Virus record (IMG/VR): IMGVR_UViG_3300043466_001090 | Location: 1 to 62,472 of that record | Length of the DNA stretch: 62,472 bases | Source of the DNA: a virus | Strand: one strand, 5' to 3' | Part shown: positions 28,201 to 61,352 of the stretch, piece after piece | Position numbering within the stretch: position 1 is the stretch's first letter | How the letters are laid out: every line of letters begins with the position of its first letter | Notes under the pieces: generated by a model | What the model saw: the letters and a program-made list of their open reading frames with translations, nothing else | Told to the model about the DNA's origin: nothing | Database searches by the model: none | Program-made: the position numbers and the translations under genes

Positions 28201-30138
28201 TTAAAATAATGAAAGCTGTGTTACTTTTTTGAAGGATACAGCTTGAATTCCTTCTATCTCTTTATAGATCTCTTCTAAATAATATCTTTTGTTTATATCA
28301 TAACTATCGAATGGTTTAGTAGCATCTAATTTGTTCACTGTTGTTTGCAGCCACTCACCAGATTCTACCTGGATCTCTCTTCCATCGTTATGACATTTCA
28401 CAAGCTTACTCCCATTACTAGATACATAATATCTAATTATTTTCTGTAGTTTGTTGTTAATAAGTTCTCCGTTAACTATTCTTCTTTCTTCAAAGTGCCA
28501 ACCACCCTTGGCTTTGACACCACCACAATAGTCTACTATGTCTTGGTTCTGATCTAGAAAGTCTTCAGGCTTAGTACCATGTACAAAATAAGCATAGATG
28601 GCTTTTGGTATAATAAGAAAAGACTTGTTCTTATGGAATGTAGCCACTTTCTTTTTAGCTAAGTCTTCCCATTCAAACGCACCTTTACATTTTACTTTAC
28701 CTCCTTTAGTGATAGCCATGTAGTTATTGACATCACGGATTATCATCTTACTATATTGGTCATGCTCTAGGGCTAGCTGTGTAAGCTTTTCCCATTCACC
28801 ACAAACTTTCATATAGTCATCCACTCTACTATCTGGTATCATCATCTCTAGACCATCTGTGTTCAACATAAGAGGTTGACACTCTGGAATAGCCAAACTT
28901 AACATCTCTGCAAGTTTTGATAATAGTAGCTGACCATTAATAGTAATCTGCATAGTCATTCTAGGATCATATAGGAAACTATTCTCGTCACCTGTTAATC
29001 CATATGTACTATTCAGGATAATCTTGTATACATAGTTCTTTGGGTCTGTCTTAGGAATCTTCTTTCTCTCTTCGAAGAACCACTCATACAGCTGATTAAA
29101 CTCTTTAGCTGGTAGATGCTCTGGATGAAAACCATTCTTGATAGCTAGATTAGGATAAAAACTAGTAACATCAGACGTCATTATTGTCCATCCTGGTTTA
29201 GCTTCATACACACCTGCTGATGTGGCACCATGGATACCACCTAAACCGTAGTCAGTCTTCACTCCCTTAAAGTTCATGCTATATTTAAATCCGTCTTTGG
29301 TAGATGTAATCACCTTAGTACGGAAATAGTCTAGCACTTTATTAAACTCAGGAGTTTTAAACTCCACATACGGTAGAATGCAATCTGCTAGTACAATATA
29401 ATCTCGTTTGGTTCTAAGCGTTTTAATATGAGCTTTGTCCCAACCAAGACGTTCTTGTAGAAAATAAAGAAATAGTTCTTTGGATATTCTAGGCTCAGAT
29501 GCTGAATATAAATCTATACCATATTCTTTAGTAAGTGTCTGCCTAAGTGCTATTTGTTCTTTAGAGTGATGAAGTATTTCTTTAGTTGAGAGTACGTCAT
29601 TAATACAATAGTCAATAACATCTTGTAATTGATTAGAATCTGTTATAGGTTGATAATGTGGATGAGGCATCTCTTCTACATTTCCCCAGTCCATGGAATA
29701 CTGTATCCACTTCAGGCTGCTCATCTTAGCTTTATTATCCCAATGATTAAGCTTAAACAAGTCTATCTGTTTAATCTTAAGCTTATAAGGAGCATAATCT
29801 AAGAAGACTCCCTTGTTGGATTTATCTATAACAGATTGTGCATAAGAATAAATATACTTAACTATATTTTCTATAGACTCTCTTAATAGATAAGTTTGAT
29901 TTTCATAGATCTTTTGTGTAATCTGAGCATCAAAGTTTAATCCATTAAAAGATATGTGCCATTCTTTCTTTGCAACACATGTGTTTAGAAACTTAACAAA
30001 CTCTGGAAAGTCATTTCTCTGTTCGCAAACAACGAACACTCTTTTTATATTTGGATCTTTATAGTGTTGAAATACTGCTATGAAACAATTACAGATAGTT
30101 TCATAGTCCATGATCCAGTGAGCTTTTTCTTCTTGCAT
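28201..30138 (-). CDS. Family B DNA polymerase with 3'-5' exonuclease
   Basis: The 645-residue protein shows the exonuclease motifs Exo I (DYET, Asp11/Glu13), Exo II (FNGLNFD, Asp70) and Exo III (Y177-C-I-N-D181). The polymerase motifs are A (DVTSFYPN, Asp323), B (K372-IILNSTYG) and C (LNTDG, Asp428). In motif C the usual DTD is NTD: Asn426 replaces the first aspartate while the second, more critical one is kept. At 645 residues it is compact compared with cellular PolB, as in many phages. It is the likely replicative polymerase, working with the DnaB-type helicase and primase encoded upstream. It is separated from the preceding gene by a terminator, so it may have its own promoter. Confidence 0.92.
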   Translation of the reverse strand: MQEEKAHWIMDYETICNCFIAVFQHYKDPNIKRVFVVCEQRNDFPEFVKFLNTCVAKKEWHISFNGLNFDAQITQKIYENQTYLLRESIENIVKYIYSYAQSVIDKSNKGVFLDYAPYKLKIKQIDLFKLNHWDNKAKMSSLKWIQYSMDWGNVEEMPHPHYQPITDSNQLQDVIDYCINDVLSTKEILHHSKEQIALRQTLTKEYGIDLYSASEPRISKELFLYFLQERLGWDKAHIKTLRTKRDYIVLADCILPYVEFKTPEFNKVLDYFRTKVITSTKDGFKYSMNFKGVKTDYGLGGIHGATSAGVYEAKPGWTIMTSDVTSFYPNLAIKNGFHPEHLPAKEFNQLYEWFFEERKKIPKTDPKNYVYKIILNSTYGLTGDENSFLYDPRMTMQITINGQLLLSKLAEMLSLAIPECQPLMLNTDGLEMMIPDSRVDDYMKVCGEWEKLTQLALEHDQYSKMIIRDVNNYMAITKGGKVKCKGAFEWEDLAKKKVATFHKNKSFLIIPKAIYAYFVHGTKPEDFLDQNQDIVDYCGGVKAKGGWHFEERRIVNGELINNKLQKIIRYYVSSNGSKLVKCHNDGREIQVESGEWLQTTVNKLDATKPFDSYDINKRYYLEEIYKEIEGIQAVSFKKVTQLSLF

Positions 30139-38951: not shown

Positions 38952-39275
38952 ATGAGTAACTTACCTCAGAAGAACTCTGTGGCTAACACCATTAAGCTTT
39001 ATCTATTTCCCTCGTTAGTCACTATAATTTCAATGCTTATTTGGCGTGACATTTCTGAGCTTAGAGCTGATGTTAAAGCTCTTCTAGCCCAGTCTAATAT
39101 AGACAAAACTAGAATAGACAATCTAGTGAATGATGTAAAGTCTTTAGAAAGTGCTGTTTTTAAAAGACAAATGTCTATGAATACAAGATGGTTTGAAGCA
39201 GTTAATCATGATCCTTGGTATAAACCAGAAGAAGAGTATGACATAAAAAAGTACATAAAGTATCCTAAAGCATGA
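38952..39275 (+). CDS. Small membrane protein with coiled coil, 107 aa
   Basis: The ATG at 38952 was chosen over the TTG two codons before. The N-terminal part holds one membrane helix (IKLYLFPSLVTIISMLIW, about residues 14-31), followed by a coiled coil (SELRADVKALLAQSNIDK onward) and a soluble C-terminus. Four bases overlap the next gene. It is the first gene of the fibre/lysis operon; the topology would fit a spanin- or holin-associated protein, but no family is recognised. Confidence 0.75.
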   Translation: MSNLPQKNSVANTIKLYLFPSLVTIISMLIWRDISELRADVKALLAQSNIDKTRIDNLVNDVKSLESAVFKRQMSMNTRWFEAVNHDPWYKPEEEYDIKKYIKYPKA

Positions 39276-40570
39276 TAGATAGTCCACAAACAATAAGCTT
39301 ACTAAAAAGCATTAACAAACAGCTTTGCTGTAAATTGGATGGTACAACTACTCCTTCTAGTATTGTTTTTGCACCCTCTACAGCTCAAGATAGCTTTGGA
39401 AGATTAAGAACCTCTGCACCACTTACATTATTTGATTCTAGTCATAGATATGCGGATAACGGACTTTGGGCCACAAATGCAGCATCAGATGGTGCAGCTG
39501 TATTTAATGCTAACCAAGGACTTGTAGATTTAAATATTACAGCAGCCTCTGGCTCTTCTATTATAAGAGAAACAATGAAGGTATTCTCTTACCAACCTGG
39601 TAAGAGTCTTTTAGTTCTTAATACGTTTGTAATGGCTCCTGCTAAAACAGGACTGACACAGAGAGTGGGATACTTTGGTGTAAATAATGGATATTATTTA
39701 CAACTAGAGAACAACACTCTTAGTTTTGTTGAAAGATCTATTGTTACAGGAAGTATTATAAATACACCTGTAGTTCAGTCTGACTGGAACTATGATAAGA
39801 TGGATGGAAATGGTCCATCTGGAATAACTCTTGATATCAGTAAGTCTCAAATACTTTGGATGGATCTTGAGTGGTTAGGTGTTGGTTCTGTAAGAATGGG
39901 CTTTGTTATAGATGGTCAGTTTATACTTTGTCATACTTTCCATCATGCTAATATCTTAGCATCTACATATATTACAACAGCTTCCCTGCCTTTGCGTTAT
40001 GAGATTTTTAATACAGCTGGAACATCTGGAGCTAGTACACTTAAACAAATATGTTCCACTGTAATTTCAGAGGGCGGGTATGAGTTAAGAGGTGTACAAC
40101 AAGCTGTTGGTACAAATATAACAACTCCTAAAGCATTTGCTGCAGCAGGAACCTATTATCCTATTGTAGCAATTAGACTTAGATCTATAAGACTAGATGG
40201 TATAGTTATCGCAACCGCTGTGTCTTTATTAGGACTTGGTAGTAGTAAAAACTATCAATGGAGAGTAGTGCAAAGTGGTATAACAACAGGAGGATCTTGG
40301 ACACCTGCATCTGCTGATTCTTCTGTAGAATATAATACTGGTGGAACTAGTGTATCTGGTGGTAGAGTTTTAGCTAGTGGATTTGTCAGTTCATCTAATC
40401 AAGGATCACCCTCTATTAATATATTAAAAGAAGCATTGTTTGCTAATCAATTAGAGAGAAACAGTTTTACAGGAACAGCTTTTGAATTTGTTGTAGAAAT
40501 GGCTGTAGGATCAATATCTGGAGGTGAAGGTGCTTTTGTTTCTATAGACTGGGAAGAAATAAGTAGATAA
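39272..40570 (+). CDS. Virion structural/fibre protein, 432 aa
   Basis: The 432-residue protein begins with a short N-terminal helix with a double Cys (INKQLCCKLDG) and continues with FGRLRTSAPLTLFDSSHRYA, a segment found in structural proteins of many unrelated phages. The rest is beta-rich (Gly/Ser/Thr) and probably forms a trimeric fibre or head/tail decoration. The Leu-Cys-Cys N-terminus recurs in the next gene. Its place before the lysis cassette fits late expression. Confidence 0.8.
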   Translation: MIDSPQTISLLKSINKQLCCKLDGTTTPSSIVFAPSTAQDSFGRLRTSAPLTLFDSSHRYADNGLWATNAASDGAAVFNANQGLVDLNITAASGSSIIRETMKVFSYQPGKSLLVLNTFVMAPAKTGLTQRVGYFGVNNGYYLQLENNTLSFVERSIVTGSIINTPVVQSDWNYDKMDGNGPSGITLDISKSQILWMDLEWLGVGSVRMGFVIDGQFILCHTFHHANILASTYITTASLPLRYEIFNTAGTSGASTLKQICSTVISEGGYELRGVQQAVGTNITTPKAFAAAGTYYPIVAIRLRSIRLDGIVIATAVSLLGLGSSKNYQWRVVQSGITTGGSWTPASADSSVEYNTGGTSVSGGRVLASGFVSSSNQGSPSINILKEALFANQLERNSFTGTAFEFVVEMAVGSISGGEGAFVSIDWEEISR

Positions 40571-55705: not shown

Positions 55706-55876
55706 TTATTTAGAGCTCTTTACTTCTCTCATTTTTTTCTTCCAAAAAGCATTTGTCTTGTTAATATGCTCTTGTTTTTCAAGTAGTTTTTTAGAACAAT
55801 CAGCAAGTTGTTCTTTAAGTTGTTCGTTTTCTTTTTCTAGTTCTTGTGTTTGTTTTTTCTTAAATAGGTTAAACAT
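55706..55876 (-). CDS. Small coiled-coil protein, 56 aa
   Basis: The frame encodes 56 residues: MFNLFKKKQTQELEKENEQL and then KEQLADCSKKLLEKQEHINK, an almost pure coiled coil with a basic end. It overlaps the upstream gene by 8 bases. Function unknown. Confidence 0.6.
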   Translation of the reverse strand: MFNLFKKKQTQELEKENEQLKEQLADCSKKLLEKQEHINKTNAFWKKKMREVKSSK

Positions 55877-56369
55877 TGTCATTGAAATTTTTAAATAGTC
55901 CTACAAATCTTCCTTCTGTTTTTAATCCACTTTCATTCATTACTTCCTCAAGTTCTATCTTTTCTACTAGTCCCTTGTCTTTTACAACCTCCATACCATT
56001 TCTTTTGATTTCATAGATGAGGCTTTGTTGTTTCTTACTTGTCTCTACACTAATCATAATCACTTCTTTTCTGTCTTGTTCATCTTCATGCACCACGGTC
56101 ATCCATGCTTCTGCAGACCAGATTAATGCTACAGGATTGAAGTCTTCTTTTAGTTTCTTAGCCACTTTTGGAAACACTTTCTCTACAAACTCATCTTTAG
56201 ACTCATCGTCTTTCATAAATTCAGCTGGTATAGGTATGTGTATAACAGCTTTTTCATCGTTTTCTAAATTTCTAGCAAATACTGTGATTATAGGAGGAAT
56301 AAACCCCTCTTCTACCATCATTGTTTTAAGATGATCTATATACTCATCTTTCATTTCTTTAAAGGTCAT
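55869..56369 (-). CDS. Acidic hypothetical protein, 166 aa
   Basis: The 166-residue protein is acidic and contains VFARNLENDEKAVIHIPIPA and EAWMTVVHEDEQDRKEVIMI. Similar proteins that read A-E-A-W-x-x-x-x-x-D occur in bacteria and phages with unknown function. It is the first gene after the tRNA terminator, so it may have a promoter in the 18-base gap or be read through. Confidence 0.65.
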   Translation of the reverse strand: MTFKEMKDEYIDHLKTMMVEEGFIPPIITVFARNLENDEKAVIHIPIPAEFMKDDESKDEFVEKVFPKVAKKLKEDFNPVALIWSAEAWMTVVHEDEQDRKEVIMISVETSKKQQSLIYEIKRNGMEVVKDKGLVEKIELEEVMNESGLKTEGRFVGLFKNFNDNV

Positions 56370-56419: not shown

Positions 56420-56453
56420 GTGATACCCTTTGAAGACTATTTTCCCATAGTCG

Positions 56454-56527
56454 TGGACTCATCTAGGATCGAACTAGAAACCTATTGATTATGAGTCAAT
56501 TGCTCTAACCTATTGAGCTATGAGTCC
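56454..56527 (-). tRNA. tRNA-CAU (Met or Ile2)
   Basis: A complete 74-base cloverleaf: acceptor GGACTCA/TGAGTCC, D stem GCTC/GAGC, anticodon stem ATTGA/TCAAT with loop CTCATAA (anticodon CAT), T stem TCTAG/CTAGA with loop TTCGATC, discriminator A. The CCA is not encoded. The C4-G69 pair is a positive mark for lysidine-modified tRNA-Ile2, but Met cannot be excluded. Its 5' base is immediately next to the stop codon of the beta-helix gene. Confidence 0.93.
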
Positions 56528-57868
56528 TTAGTATATACCCATATTGTATGGGAACACAACAGGATTGTTTTCAAAGTTTCTTGACAGTCCTACATCAGTT
56601 CCTGTACTAGCAGCTGGACTTCCTGGAGCTAAATGATAATCCCAAAGAAGAGGATTAGCACTAACTGTGTTCATCCAGATAGTTGATGTAGAATTGATTT
56701 CTGATCTATCTAGCGTGAAGTTGGTTATGCTACCTCCTGATAGTTGAAATAAGTTATTTGTATGTACAAACTGATTAGCAGGAGTGGTTAAGCTTGTTCT
56801 AGCTACCTGAAGACCATTGGTAAGCTTGAAGATGTTGTTCTTAGCTACAATAACATTAGGAATAGTGTCAGCTGATTTTTGACCAAATACAGCTGTAGAT
56901 GTTCTAGGAGTTGTTTCTACAAATACATTGTTATAGATCATTAGGTTTCTCACTCTTGTCTTATACTGTCCACCGTTGTTAATATAAACACTACTACCAC
57001 AGTTAATCACCTTGTTAAAAGCAAATGTGTTGTTACGGATGTCATTGTTAGCTATACCATCAGCATTAGAACCGTGCTCAAGTGTACCGTTGTTATCATA
57101 GAACGTGTTATAAGCAATAAAGTTATTCTCTATAACAGCTCCTTCTTCAAAGAACTCTATACCACCACCATCTCTACCATAATCATAGGACATAGCCCAA
57201 CAATCATGTAGATAGTTGTTTGTGAATGTATTCCCTGAACTAGAGATTTGTACTGGTACACCACCATAGTCATCATCAGGATTGATAGTCTTTGGTGTGT
57301 TTTTAATCATTCTAAGATTACCAATATCACAGCCTGTAATATTGTTACCTGTTGAGGATGATGTAAGATAGAACCCATATCCAATTCTATCCATTCTACA
57401 GTTTTTAACAGTGTTTCCTGTAGAACTTTGATCCATCATAAAGGCTATTTTTATCTTAGCCATTACATATCTATCTGTAAATGAGATGGTTGTATCAGAT
57501 ATATTCCAGTTATCAACTACAATGTTCTTAGAATTTCTAAGGATAACCAATGAGGATATTGTAGCTCCTGTTCCCCAGAACAAAGGTTTTGCACCTGTTC
57601 CATAACTACCAAAGTAGACATTTGTCTTAGAAGATACAACTAATGTCCCATTGAATCTATCTCCACTTCTAAATAACACACTGTCTCCACTAACTATGGA
57701 GGACATAGAGCTCTGCACTTTGCTAAGACTAGCCCATGGTGTAGATGAGCTCTGAGCTTGTGTAATAGTTCTTGTATCATTACCCAAAGTGGATGATACA
57801 TAAATAATTCTACCATAGCTTAATTGACATACTAAAAATGCCAATGCAAAAAGAAAAACTTTTTTCAT
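56528..57868 (-). CDS. Secreted right-handed beta-helix protein, 446 aa
   Basis: The start was set at the ATG at 57868 rather than the TTG three codons before it. The first 19 residues (MKKVFLFALAFLVCQLSYG) are a signal peptide, followed by RIIYVSS and a long ladder of Asn/Ser/Thr/Gly repeats (SGNTFTNNYLHDCWA, GIANNDIRNNTFAFN, VYINNGG), the pattern of parallel beta-helix pectate-lyase-like proteins. The conserved Asp/Arg triad of pectate lyase is not obvious. It is a phage gene with a host-type export signal, so it probably acts in the periplasm or outside the cell, perhaps on a polysaccharide. The gene lies between a tmRNA and a tRNA on one transcript. Confidence 0.85.
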   Translation of the reverse strand: MKKVFLFALAFLVCQLSYGRIIYVSSTLGNDTRTITQAQSSSTPWASLSKVQSSMSSIVSGDSVLFRSGDRFNGTLVVSSKTNVYFGSYGTGAKPLFWGTGATISSLVILRNSKNIVVDNWNISDTTISFTDRYVMAKIKIAFMMDQSSTGNTVKNCRMDRIGYGFYLTSSSTGNNITGCDIGNLRMIKNTPKTINPDDDYGGVPVQISSSGNTFTNNYLHDCWAMSYDYGRDGGGIEFFEEGAVIENNFIAYNTFYDNNGTLEHGSNADGIANNDIRNNTFAFNKVINCGSSVYINNGGQYKTRVRNLMIYNNVFVETTPRTSTAVFGQKSADTIPNVIVAKNNIFKLTNGLQVARTSLTTPANQFVHTNNLFQLSGGSITNFTLDRSEINSTSTIWMNTVSANPLLWDYHLAPGSPAASTGTDVGLSRNFENNPVVFPYNMGIY

Positions 57869-57890: not shown

Positions 57891-58399
57891 TGGAGGTGAG
57901 GGGAGTCGAACCCCTGTCCAACAAGATTCCAAAAATACCATTCTTACATGCTTAGTCAAGAGATAGCTTGACAACTATTGTACTAAAGTAAAGCTATAAG
58001 CTTACTTTTGCACCGTAGTTTATACTGATAATCAAGAGGATGAACCCCCGTTATCTGCACCGTAAAGGGAACTAACCAGTGGTTTAGAAGCCACCAGCTC
58101 CACCACCTAGTTTATGAACTAGGAAACTAACTTTCTTTTTACATCATATAGTCTTGGATGGTCAGTGTCACAGGATGTCCTATGTCTTTACATGTGCTAT
58201 TTTCTGTTCCAAAGCATAGCTGCTCGTCTGATTAGGCTAATACAGCCTCAGCTTCAAGTTCTGCAAGCAGACTGTCCACTGTGTACTCAGAAAGGTCAAC
58301 GTTAGTGTTGCCAGTTAAAAGTAATCAGTTTTTTTGACCACTGACTAGGTCTTGCATGTGATACTTCCTTCATAATGCTGTCAAAACCATGGCACCCCC
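57891..58399 (-). ncRNA. ssrA: tmRNA (ssrA), phage-encoded
   Basis: The tRNA-like ends are complete. The 5' strand GGGGGTG (58399-58393) pairs with CACCTCC near the 3' end over 7 bp, with one G-T. The T arm is AGGGG-TTCGACT-CCCCT, then discriminator A at 57891; CCA is not encoded. The tag frame starts with GGC, as in Bacteroidota tmRNAs, just after TTTTAACT, and encodes 26 residues: GNTNVDLSEYTVD, then SLLAELEAEAVLA, before TAA (stop at about 58230). The usual ALAA end is AVLA here. A GCAAGA/TCTTGT pair fits stem P2. The total is about 509 bases, longer than the common 350-400. No smpB is seen, so host SmpB would be used. The 5' end lies 20 bases after the stop of the Zn-ribbon gene. Confidence 0.95.
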
Positions 58400-58408
58400 A
58401 TGAGTTTA

Positions 58409-58416
58409 CAAATATA
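58409..58416 (-). promoter_or_regulatory. Candidate -7 box of the tmRNA
   Basis: On the minus strand TATATTTG matches TAnnTTTG, 9 bases before the first base of mature tmRNA. A TTG about 24 bases upstream is a weak -33 match. It overlaps the end of the 123-aa gene by a few bases. Confidence 0.55.
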
Positions 58417-58418
58417 CA

Positions 58419-58790
58419 CTATTTTACTTTACACTTTTCACAATATTGTGGATCTAAATGTCCACTCTTAAAAGCAAAGTCTATTTCTTCTTCTGTAAAA
58501 TCTACACCAGTTTTTATAATAGTTCTACAATCATTACATAGTAGAGCTAAATCACCACCATTGAACTTAACAATAGCTTTTTCTTTTGTCAAGTTTTTTG
58601 TGTCATTTACTTGACTTTTATCTGATTCTTCCCAGAATCTGCAGTAGAAATGTTCTCCTAATGCATCTATTTCAGATTGAGGATAACCCTGTTCTATAAG
58701 CCATACAAGACTGTCTTGTCTTCTATCTTCAGGAATAGATTTAGGAAACCCATACTTCCACCCTGATGGTGGGTCAATAATTGTTGCCAT
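58419..58790 (-). CDS. Zn-ribbon-like protein, 123 aa
   Basis: The 123-residue protein begins MATIIDPPSGWKYGFPKSIP and ends with two CxxC pairs (LLCNDCRTIIKTG, CEKCKVK) that probably bind one zinc ion. The middle is charged and contains WLIEQGYPQSEIDALGEHFY. The pattern is common in phages near tail or small accessory genes. Function unknown. It lies 4 bases after the 37-aa gene. Confidence 0.7.
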   Translation of the reverse strand: MATIIDPPSGWKYGFPKSIPEDRRQDSLVWLIEQGYPQSEIDALGEHFYCRFWEESDKSQVNDTKNLTKEKAIVKFNGGDLALLCNDCRTIIKTGVDFTEEEIDFAFKSGHLDPQYCEKCKVK

Positions 58791-59068: not shown

Positions 59069-59069
59069 G

Positions 59070-59143
59070 TGATCTCAGATGGGCTCGAACCATCAGCCTA
59101 CAGCTTAGAAGGCTGTCGCTCTATCCTGTTGAGCTATGAGACC
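59070..59143 (-). tRNA. tRNA-Arg (UCU)
   Basis: A complete 74-base cloverleaf: acceptor GGTCTCA/TGAGATC (G2-T71 wobble), D stem GCTC/GAGC, anticodon stem ACAGC/GCTGT with loop CTTCTAA (anticodon TCT), T stem GATGG/CCATC with loop TTCGAGC, discriminator A. CCA is not encoded. It reads AGA, the favoured Arg codon of this AT-rich genome. Confidence 0.95.
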
Positions 59144-60572: not shown

Positions 60573-61352
60573 TTATGAAAGTTTCTCAAACAATTCAGAT
60601 AGTTTACCTTCTTCTTGTGTAGCAAGAATAAACTTCTCTTTGTTTTTCTGAAGCTTTGCTAAAAATGTTTTATGATCATACTTAGAAGTGCCTCTTAAGA
60701 ACTTTACATACTCTTTTACAGCATATCTGTTCTCAAATCTGTTCATACGTGGAACAATCTTGAGCATATCTGTAACATTGTTAAGTATTTCTACATTCTT
60801 TTGCTCATTAATAATCTTAAACTCACCTGATTTAAGAATTTTAGTATGAGCACCACCACCTCTTGAATTACCCATAAGAATAGCGGCAAGTTCTGTTATT
60901 TCAAGATCATACACTTGAAAGTAATGATTAAGTTTTACATAATCTTCTTTCAAGCTAGACCAAGCTACAACATAGTCTTGCATACTCCATGTCTTAGAGC
61001 TAGCATTAAGCATTGCTATTTTCTCTACAAGATCTTGTTTGTTGTCCACTTGTATAGTGACATAAGGTATTTCCCATCCCAATCTAATGAGAGCATTGAA
61101 GATGTGTTGACCGTCAATGATATACTTTGCTAGTTTACCATTAACAAAAGACATTTCTGCTATCACTACAGGTCTAATAATAGTCATCATTTCTAATGAC
61201 TTAGCTAGTTTAGTAACTTGACCTGGATTTATTGGACGGTTTATACCAGCTAAGTAGTTAAACTTGATGTTACCTGTAAGAGATAACCATTTGATGTTCT
61301 TCAGAGCGTCTTTGTAAAAGTTTTTTGATGCTACTGTTGTTGTTTTTTTCAT
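60573..61352 (-). CDS. ParB/Spo0J-like domain protein
   Basis: The 259-residue protein has an N-terminal ParB-like region: NRPINPGQVTKLAKSLEMMT, then RPVVIAE, YIIDGQHIFNALIRLG (Asp80-Gly-Gln-His83) and IPYVTI. The G-Q-H replaces the G-x-R-R of classic ParB, as in DGQHR-type proteins. The rest is helical and may bind DNA. No ParA is seen, so it is likely a nuclease-like or regulatory variant rather than a segregation protein. Confidence 0.78.
   Translation of the reverse strand: MKKTTTVASKNFYKDALKNIKWLSLTGNIKFNYLAGINRPINPGQVTKLAKSLEMMTIIRPVVIAEMSFVNGKLAKYIIDGQHIFNALIRLGWEIPYVTIQVDNKQDLVEKIAMLNASSKTWSMQDYVVAWSSLKEDYVKLNHYFQVYDLEITELAAILMGNSRGGGAHTKILKSGEFKIINEQKNVEILNNVTDMLKIVPRMNRFENRYAVKEYVKFLRGTSKYDHKTFLAKLQKNKEKFILATQEEGKLSELFEKLS

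Follow-up and report, generated by a model that had tools for sequence, protein, structure and literature searches.

A phage-encoded one-piece tmRNA with a 26-codon tag and its relatives in viral contigs and Flavobacterium phages

The tmRNA locus and its neighbourhood

We analysed a locus in a 62,472-nt stretch of viral DNA, which as a whole is called the window here. An earlier note had described this locus (57891-58399) as a phage-encoded tmRNA with all tRNA-like parts and a 26-residue tag that ends in AVLA. The features of the locus are listed below.

59069-59143, tRNA-Arg, called by ARAGORN
58419..58790, minus strand, upstream neighbour of 123 aa with CxxC...CxxC; its homologue (59% identity) adjoins the tmRNA in the relative G017
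58409..58416, minus strand, TATATTTG box, 17 nt upstream of the mature 5' end, fitting TAnnTTTG
57891..58399, minus strand, mature one-piece tmRNA (ssrA), 509 nt, with A73 at 57891; from RF00023 and the acceptor/T-arm pairing
58393..58399, minus strand, acceptor stem 5' strand GGGGGUG, in which G3 pairs with U70; located by pairing
58325..58351, minus strand, PK1, H-type pseudoknot before the tag, GACC/GGUC and UCAGU/ACUGA; from covariation
58235..58312, minus strand, tag reading frame of 26 codons, GNTNVDLSEYTVDSLLAELEAEAVLA; from translation and third-position excess
58232..58234, minus strand, tag stop codon TAA
58196..58224, minus strand, PK2, H-type pseudoknot after the tag, AGCA/UGCU and GCUA/UAGC; from covariation
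58131..58195, minus strand, insert of about 65 nt common to the loci L017, L294 and L217 and missing in the other aligned relatives; from alignment
58009..58063, minus strand, stretch between two ACGGUGCA copies (58063-58056 and 58016-58009); from sequence and alignment
57891..57920, minus strand, T-arm and acceptor 3' strand CACCUCC with A73; located by pairing
56453-56527, tRNA-Met, called by ARAGORN

In the Rfam covariance search, RF00023 matched positions 58399-57888 of the minus strand over the full model (1-374) with a score of 88.7 bits (E = 4.3e-33; gathering score 47), while Bacteroidota tmRNAs reach 122-160 bits with the same model. Together with G3-U70, the T-arm and A73, this full-model match bears out the reading as a phage-encoded tmRNA with a complete tRNA-like part, and the coordinates, the tag length and the AVLA end given earlier were all correct. 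The RNA ends with the discriminator A73, and CCA is absent from the DNA. G3-U70 and the discriminator A were present in the tmRNAs that we delimited, both in the window and in its relatives. ARAGORN called only the two tRNAs in the window and did not call the tmRNA.

A covariance-model check of P2 and the pseudoknots had been proposed in the earlier note. In the cmscan alignment P2 (CAUGC/GCAUG), which joins both ends, was placed and contains several non-standard pairs distally, and both PK1 and PK2 were upheld by covariation. For PK1, 97.8% of cells were paired and 24 cells were changed on both sides, in a set of 11 sequences picked for a similar PK1 arrangement; for PK2 the respective values were 96.2% and 44 in 23 sequences. 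None of 500 shuffles scored as high as the observed covariation (PK1: 0.731, shuffled mean 0.256; PK2: 0.667, shuffled mean 0.242), and the signal was gone when the partners were moved by 1-3 columns. The PK3/PK4 region is expanded and rearranged, and mostly lies outside the structure assigned in the Rfam alignment. An Rfam search with the insert at 58131..58195 gave no credible match. The stretch at 58009..58063 is an apparent duplicated pseudoknot-region module; most aligned relatives have a single ACGGUGCA copy.

The first tag codon encodes Gly, and the frame runs to its stop codon with a small hydrophobic C-terminus, AVLA. An -AA end is usual for tmRNA tags and not obligatory. The tag is indeed long and without the ALAA end, as the earlier note had remarked; in the tmRNA database, tags of 10 residues are the most common (PMC11915505).

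The TATATTTG box is a candidate promoter element, since it fits TAnnTTTG, the Bacteroidota -7 promoter consensus. In the relatives G017 and G062 the tmRNA is flanked by homologues of the ParB-like gene (60573-61352) and of gene 55869-56369, as in the window. In some relatives the tmRNA follows immediately on a tRNA-like 3' end, once that of an ARAGORN-called tRNA-Ile. Gene 56528-57868 (minus strand), which starts about 20 nt past the tmRNA 3' end, has an apparent signal peptide, and its product contains repeats that by eye resemble a right-handed beta-helix; its homologue is absent from G017 and G062. Elsewhere, at 1168-24175 (plus strand), the window carries three giant reading frames (1690, 3126 and 2845 aa), which are weakly similar to giant genes of G062 and had no PHROGs matches.

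Lineage, host and distribution

We used the window DNA polymerase (28201-30138) as the query and obtained 72 viral-contig loci with 50-93% identity. The polymerase was chosen as the lineage marker because the protein of the structural gene 39272-40570, which we rejected for this use, is widespread and occurs also in cyanophages. Among 50 polymerase-relative records searched, some of them possibly fragments in which absence says little, 8 scored above the RF00023 cut-off; a ninth record (G063) carries a 779-nt tmRNA, only a small part of which was matched in this search. Of polymerase relatives longer than 100 kb, 7 of 10 have a tmRNA. In the remaining three (G034, G045, G058) it was not found by model, pattern or tag search, so the tmRNA is either dispensable in this lineage or at times undetected. 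The tmRNA is present in further viral contigs; the earlier note had advised looking in related genomes. The RNA of L017 is near-identical (532 nt) and has the same tag as the window, and in L293 ARAGORN independently reads a homologous tag, GNTNVDLSDYTVESLFAELEGELALA. BLASTN of the tmRNA locus against annotated phages gave no matches.

ARAGORN is part of common phage annotation pipelines. It called 21 of 32 loci and missed 11 as well as the window's own, which implies that phage tmRNA genes of this type are undercounted. Where it made a call the tag mostly agreed with ours; the discrepancies were another frame for L212 and a later tag start in some loci.

Several of these RNAs are well above the usual length: L265 (the RNA of G063), L264 (681 nt), and L270 and L292 (640 nt each). 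Introns and known RNAs were sought in the long inserts, and neither was found. A module of about 75 nt with the core AUUAAGA-CUA-GUUCCCAAA is present in one or two copies per RNA in these four, and a pattern scan of viral contigs found the core confined to the tmRNAs of those four contigs. Another module, about 60 nt long (AGUCCUAUGAU...GGAUACU-AUGGCGUG), occurs at varying positions in the tmRNA bodies of L262, L264, L270 and L286; in L264 it had no Rfam match.

We identified no terminase in the window and therefore placed the lineage through G062; crAss-type portal and capsid genes are not in the window either. Most matches of the G062 terminase were to crAss-like phages and to phages of Bacteroides, Cellulophaga and Flavobacterium, with 25-27% identity among the best. 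The capsid protein of G062 is closest to that of Leptolyngbya phage Lbo-JY46 (29%), with crAss-like phages next. We infer through this relative that the clade forms a distant branch of the crAss-like phages. The label "crAss-like", which the earlier note had used, holds at this distance. A cyanobacterial host, raised by the capsid match, was considered and rejected; Lbo-JY46 has no tmRNA above cut-off.

Shine-Dalgarno sites are rare in Bacteroidota, and in the window a Shine-Dalgarno-like site precedes only 1 of 46 long frames. The window tmRNA shares the 5' motif TGGTTTTGACAGC with Flavobacterium tmRNAs. The tag of Bacteroidota hosts is GE[NT]NYALAA, and the GNTN start of the window tag resembles its GENN or GETN start, while the length and the -LA end differ; the earlier note had suggested this comparison with host ssrA. 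These three observations and the TAnnTTTG box make a Bacteroidota host likely for the window phage, as judged from sequence. Flavobacterium itself has a host-type tmRNA and tag.

The earlier note named no other tmRNA from crAss-like phages. That of the window is not the only one in such phages, as Flavobacterium phage FpV21 and its sister records have one. In FpV21 (KT876726.1) RF00023 scored 58.2 bits at 84348-84762, an unannotated site, and this was the only one of 11 records tested that was above cut-off. The FpV21 tag has 35 codons, GNTNNSVVSLEDNAQVEANMNMAFSLIREDVAVAA, and ends in DVAVAA. We found it at an identity of at least 99% in 29 F. psychrophilum phage records, a count that takes in closely related isolates and duplicate records. 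The annotated F. psychrophilum phage records listed have no feature at the tmRNA site; NC_031912.1, for example, has an unannotated tmRNA around 84756-84860. The gut crAss-like records that we examined gave no RF00023 matches above cut-off.

Tag cassettes and the possible role of the RNA

We delimited 40 tmRNAs from viral contigs and FpV21, some of them nearly identical, and read their tags. Three cassettes were distinguished: A, V[DE]LS-YT--SL-AEL (window, L017, L293, L294, L295, L008 and L011); B, ERVAEGEAILASIF; and C, IINMAFANARVAVAA. Despite the unrelated cassette sequences, most tags have 24-27 codons, with the exceptions of FpV21 (35), L120 (30) and L123 (29). The tag ends in -AA in 32 of the 40, in -LA in 7, all with cassette A (the window and 6 relatives), and in -VA in one. 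Since relatives with the same RNA mostly end in -AVAA or -AIAA, it is specifically the subgroup of the window that has lost -AA. Tag ends seen in other viral contigs were LAEEALVA in L120 (G012), VELAIAA in L123 (G025) and IELAIAA in L119 (G015).

Four cassette-A phages whose recruitment had not depended on the tag (window, L008, L011, L295) were compared over a 15-codon tag core. The minimal numbers of changes at codon positions 1, 2 and 3 were 5, 1 and 13 (at least 13 of 19 at third positions by chance: binomial P = 0.0019, a rough value as the sequences share ancestry). With L217 added, a hybrid that has an A-like tag start and an AIAA end, the numbers were 10, 3 and 21 (P = 0.0006, rough for the same reason). 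This third-position excess indicates that the tag peptide is under selection. For a second tag group pN/pS was 0.19; we set this value aside as evidence, because the pattern used to recruit those sequences follows amino acids. The distribution of the cassettes disagrees with the polymerase tree: cassette C is found in G046/G047 and also in G049, a phage that groups with the cassette-B G017. Exchange of cassettes between phages would be one reading of this discordance in a small tree.

We consider it likely that the RNA is a working phage tmRNA, which would serve host SmpB-dependent ribosome rescue and mark products for degradation. SmpB was not found in 15 phage records, while 10 bacterial controls were positive; hence it would be supplied by the host. 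Host AlaRS would charge the RNA, and during infection host SmpB would bring it to ribosomes that have stalled on truncated mRNA. The stalled protein would gain Ala and GNTNVDLSEYTVDSLLAELEAEAVLA and be released, and would then be degraded by an AAA+ protease of the host, for example ClpXP. The most likely benefit would be that ribosomes are kept available for phage translation.

A passenger copy of host ssrA in functionless decay would fit the patchy occurrence on the polymerase tree and the Rfam score below those of Bacteroidota tmRNAs, but is highly improbable in view of the compensatory changes in PK1 and PK2, the third-position excess, the conserved G3-U70 and the wide spread of divergent copies.

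For ClpXP of E. coli it is chiefly the terminal Ala-Ala that counts, and replacing the penultimate Ala increases KM while Vmax changes little (PMC7652416). Because its last two residues are -LA and not -AA, the window tag would probably be a weaker ClpX signal than the host GE[NT]NYALAA, if Bacteroidota ClpX behaves alike. Thus the E. coli data predict weaker recognition and not protection, although with this departure from the best ClpX signal degradation is not assured. A purely terminal degron leaves the conserved mid-tag unexplained, which suggests an additional contact. It is conceivable, though rather doubtful, that the tag serves as an independent address beyond a terminal degron, in which the mid-tag (V[DE]LS-YT--SL-AEL in the group of the window, ERVAEGEAILASIF in others) would bind a specific partner that decides what becomes of proteins from ribosomes stalled in the infected cell, and that phages swap such address cassettes within a single tmRNA gene.

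Alternatively, in line with an idea of the earlier note, the tag might send tagged host or phage proteins elsewhere, to another protease, to an adaptor or into protection, with the mid-tag as the address. The consistent -LA end of the window's subgroup, the mid-tag conservation beyond the need of a terminal degron, the near-constant tag length over unrelated cassettes and the raised KM would all fit. However, -AVAA or -AIAA is kept in most relatives with the same RNA, Vmax in E. coli is hardly altered, an adaptor was not identified, and no phage protein of three genomes matches the mid-tag convincingly. We regard such redirection as unlikely. An origin of the tag in a phage protein was sought with tblastn, which gave chance-level matches only.

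The phage RNA could also act as a competitor of host tmRNA, for instance through titration of SmpB, and so block host trans-translation. A tRNA-like-only RNA such as that of mycobacteriophage DS6A inhibits tmRNA, perhaps in this way (PMC4131195), and the lack of SmpB in the 15 records would agree with it. The DS6A RNA has no tag, however, whereas here selection maintains the tag frame, the stop codon and the pseudoknots, and competition is therefore a very unlikely explanation.

In summary, a working tmRNA remains our preferred reading, and the phage seems to invest in the tag itself, beyond freeing ribosomes, as indicated by selection, the sharp difference from the host tag and the alternative cassettes of near-fixed length.

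Comparison with known tmRNAs

With the one-piece tmRNA of Bacteroidota (RF00023) the window RNA shares the G3-U70 ends, P2, PK1, PK2, the Gly first codon and the Flavobacterium-like TGGTTTTGACAGC. It differs in its 26-codon tag ending in -LA instead of GE[NT]NYALAA, in its length (509 nt, not about 397 nt) and in the expanded, rearranged PK3/PK4 region.

Phage tmRNAs as such are already known (PMC4131195, PMC9004378) and were present in 402 of 18,146 phage genomes surveyed (PMC9004378). Bxz1-like mycobacteriophages and Bacillus phage G also encode a tmRNA (PMC4131195), but these phages and their hosts are unrelated to those considered here. Methylophage Melnitz and its SAR11-phage relatives are a further case of aquatic phage tmRNA (PMC9004378); theirs is two-piece (permuted) and riboswitch-controlled, whereas that of the window is one-piece. 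New here are the lineage, tags that are both long and conserved, and a body expanded to as much as 779 nt. We found no report of a tmRNA in crAss-like or F. psychrophilum phages in the open-access literature; the tmRNA database may already include the FpV sequences.

The tmRNA of FpV21, Fpv2 and Fpv20 (Fipvunavirus) shares with that of the window a distant crAss-like kinship by terminase, a long tag with a GNTN start and the lack of annotation. It differs in its 35-codon tag ending in DVAVAA, its length of 412 nt and its known, cultured host. A related tmRNA in cultured F. psychrophilum phages makes the question of why phages carry tmRNA open to experiment.
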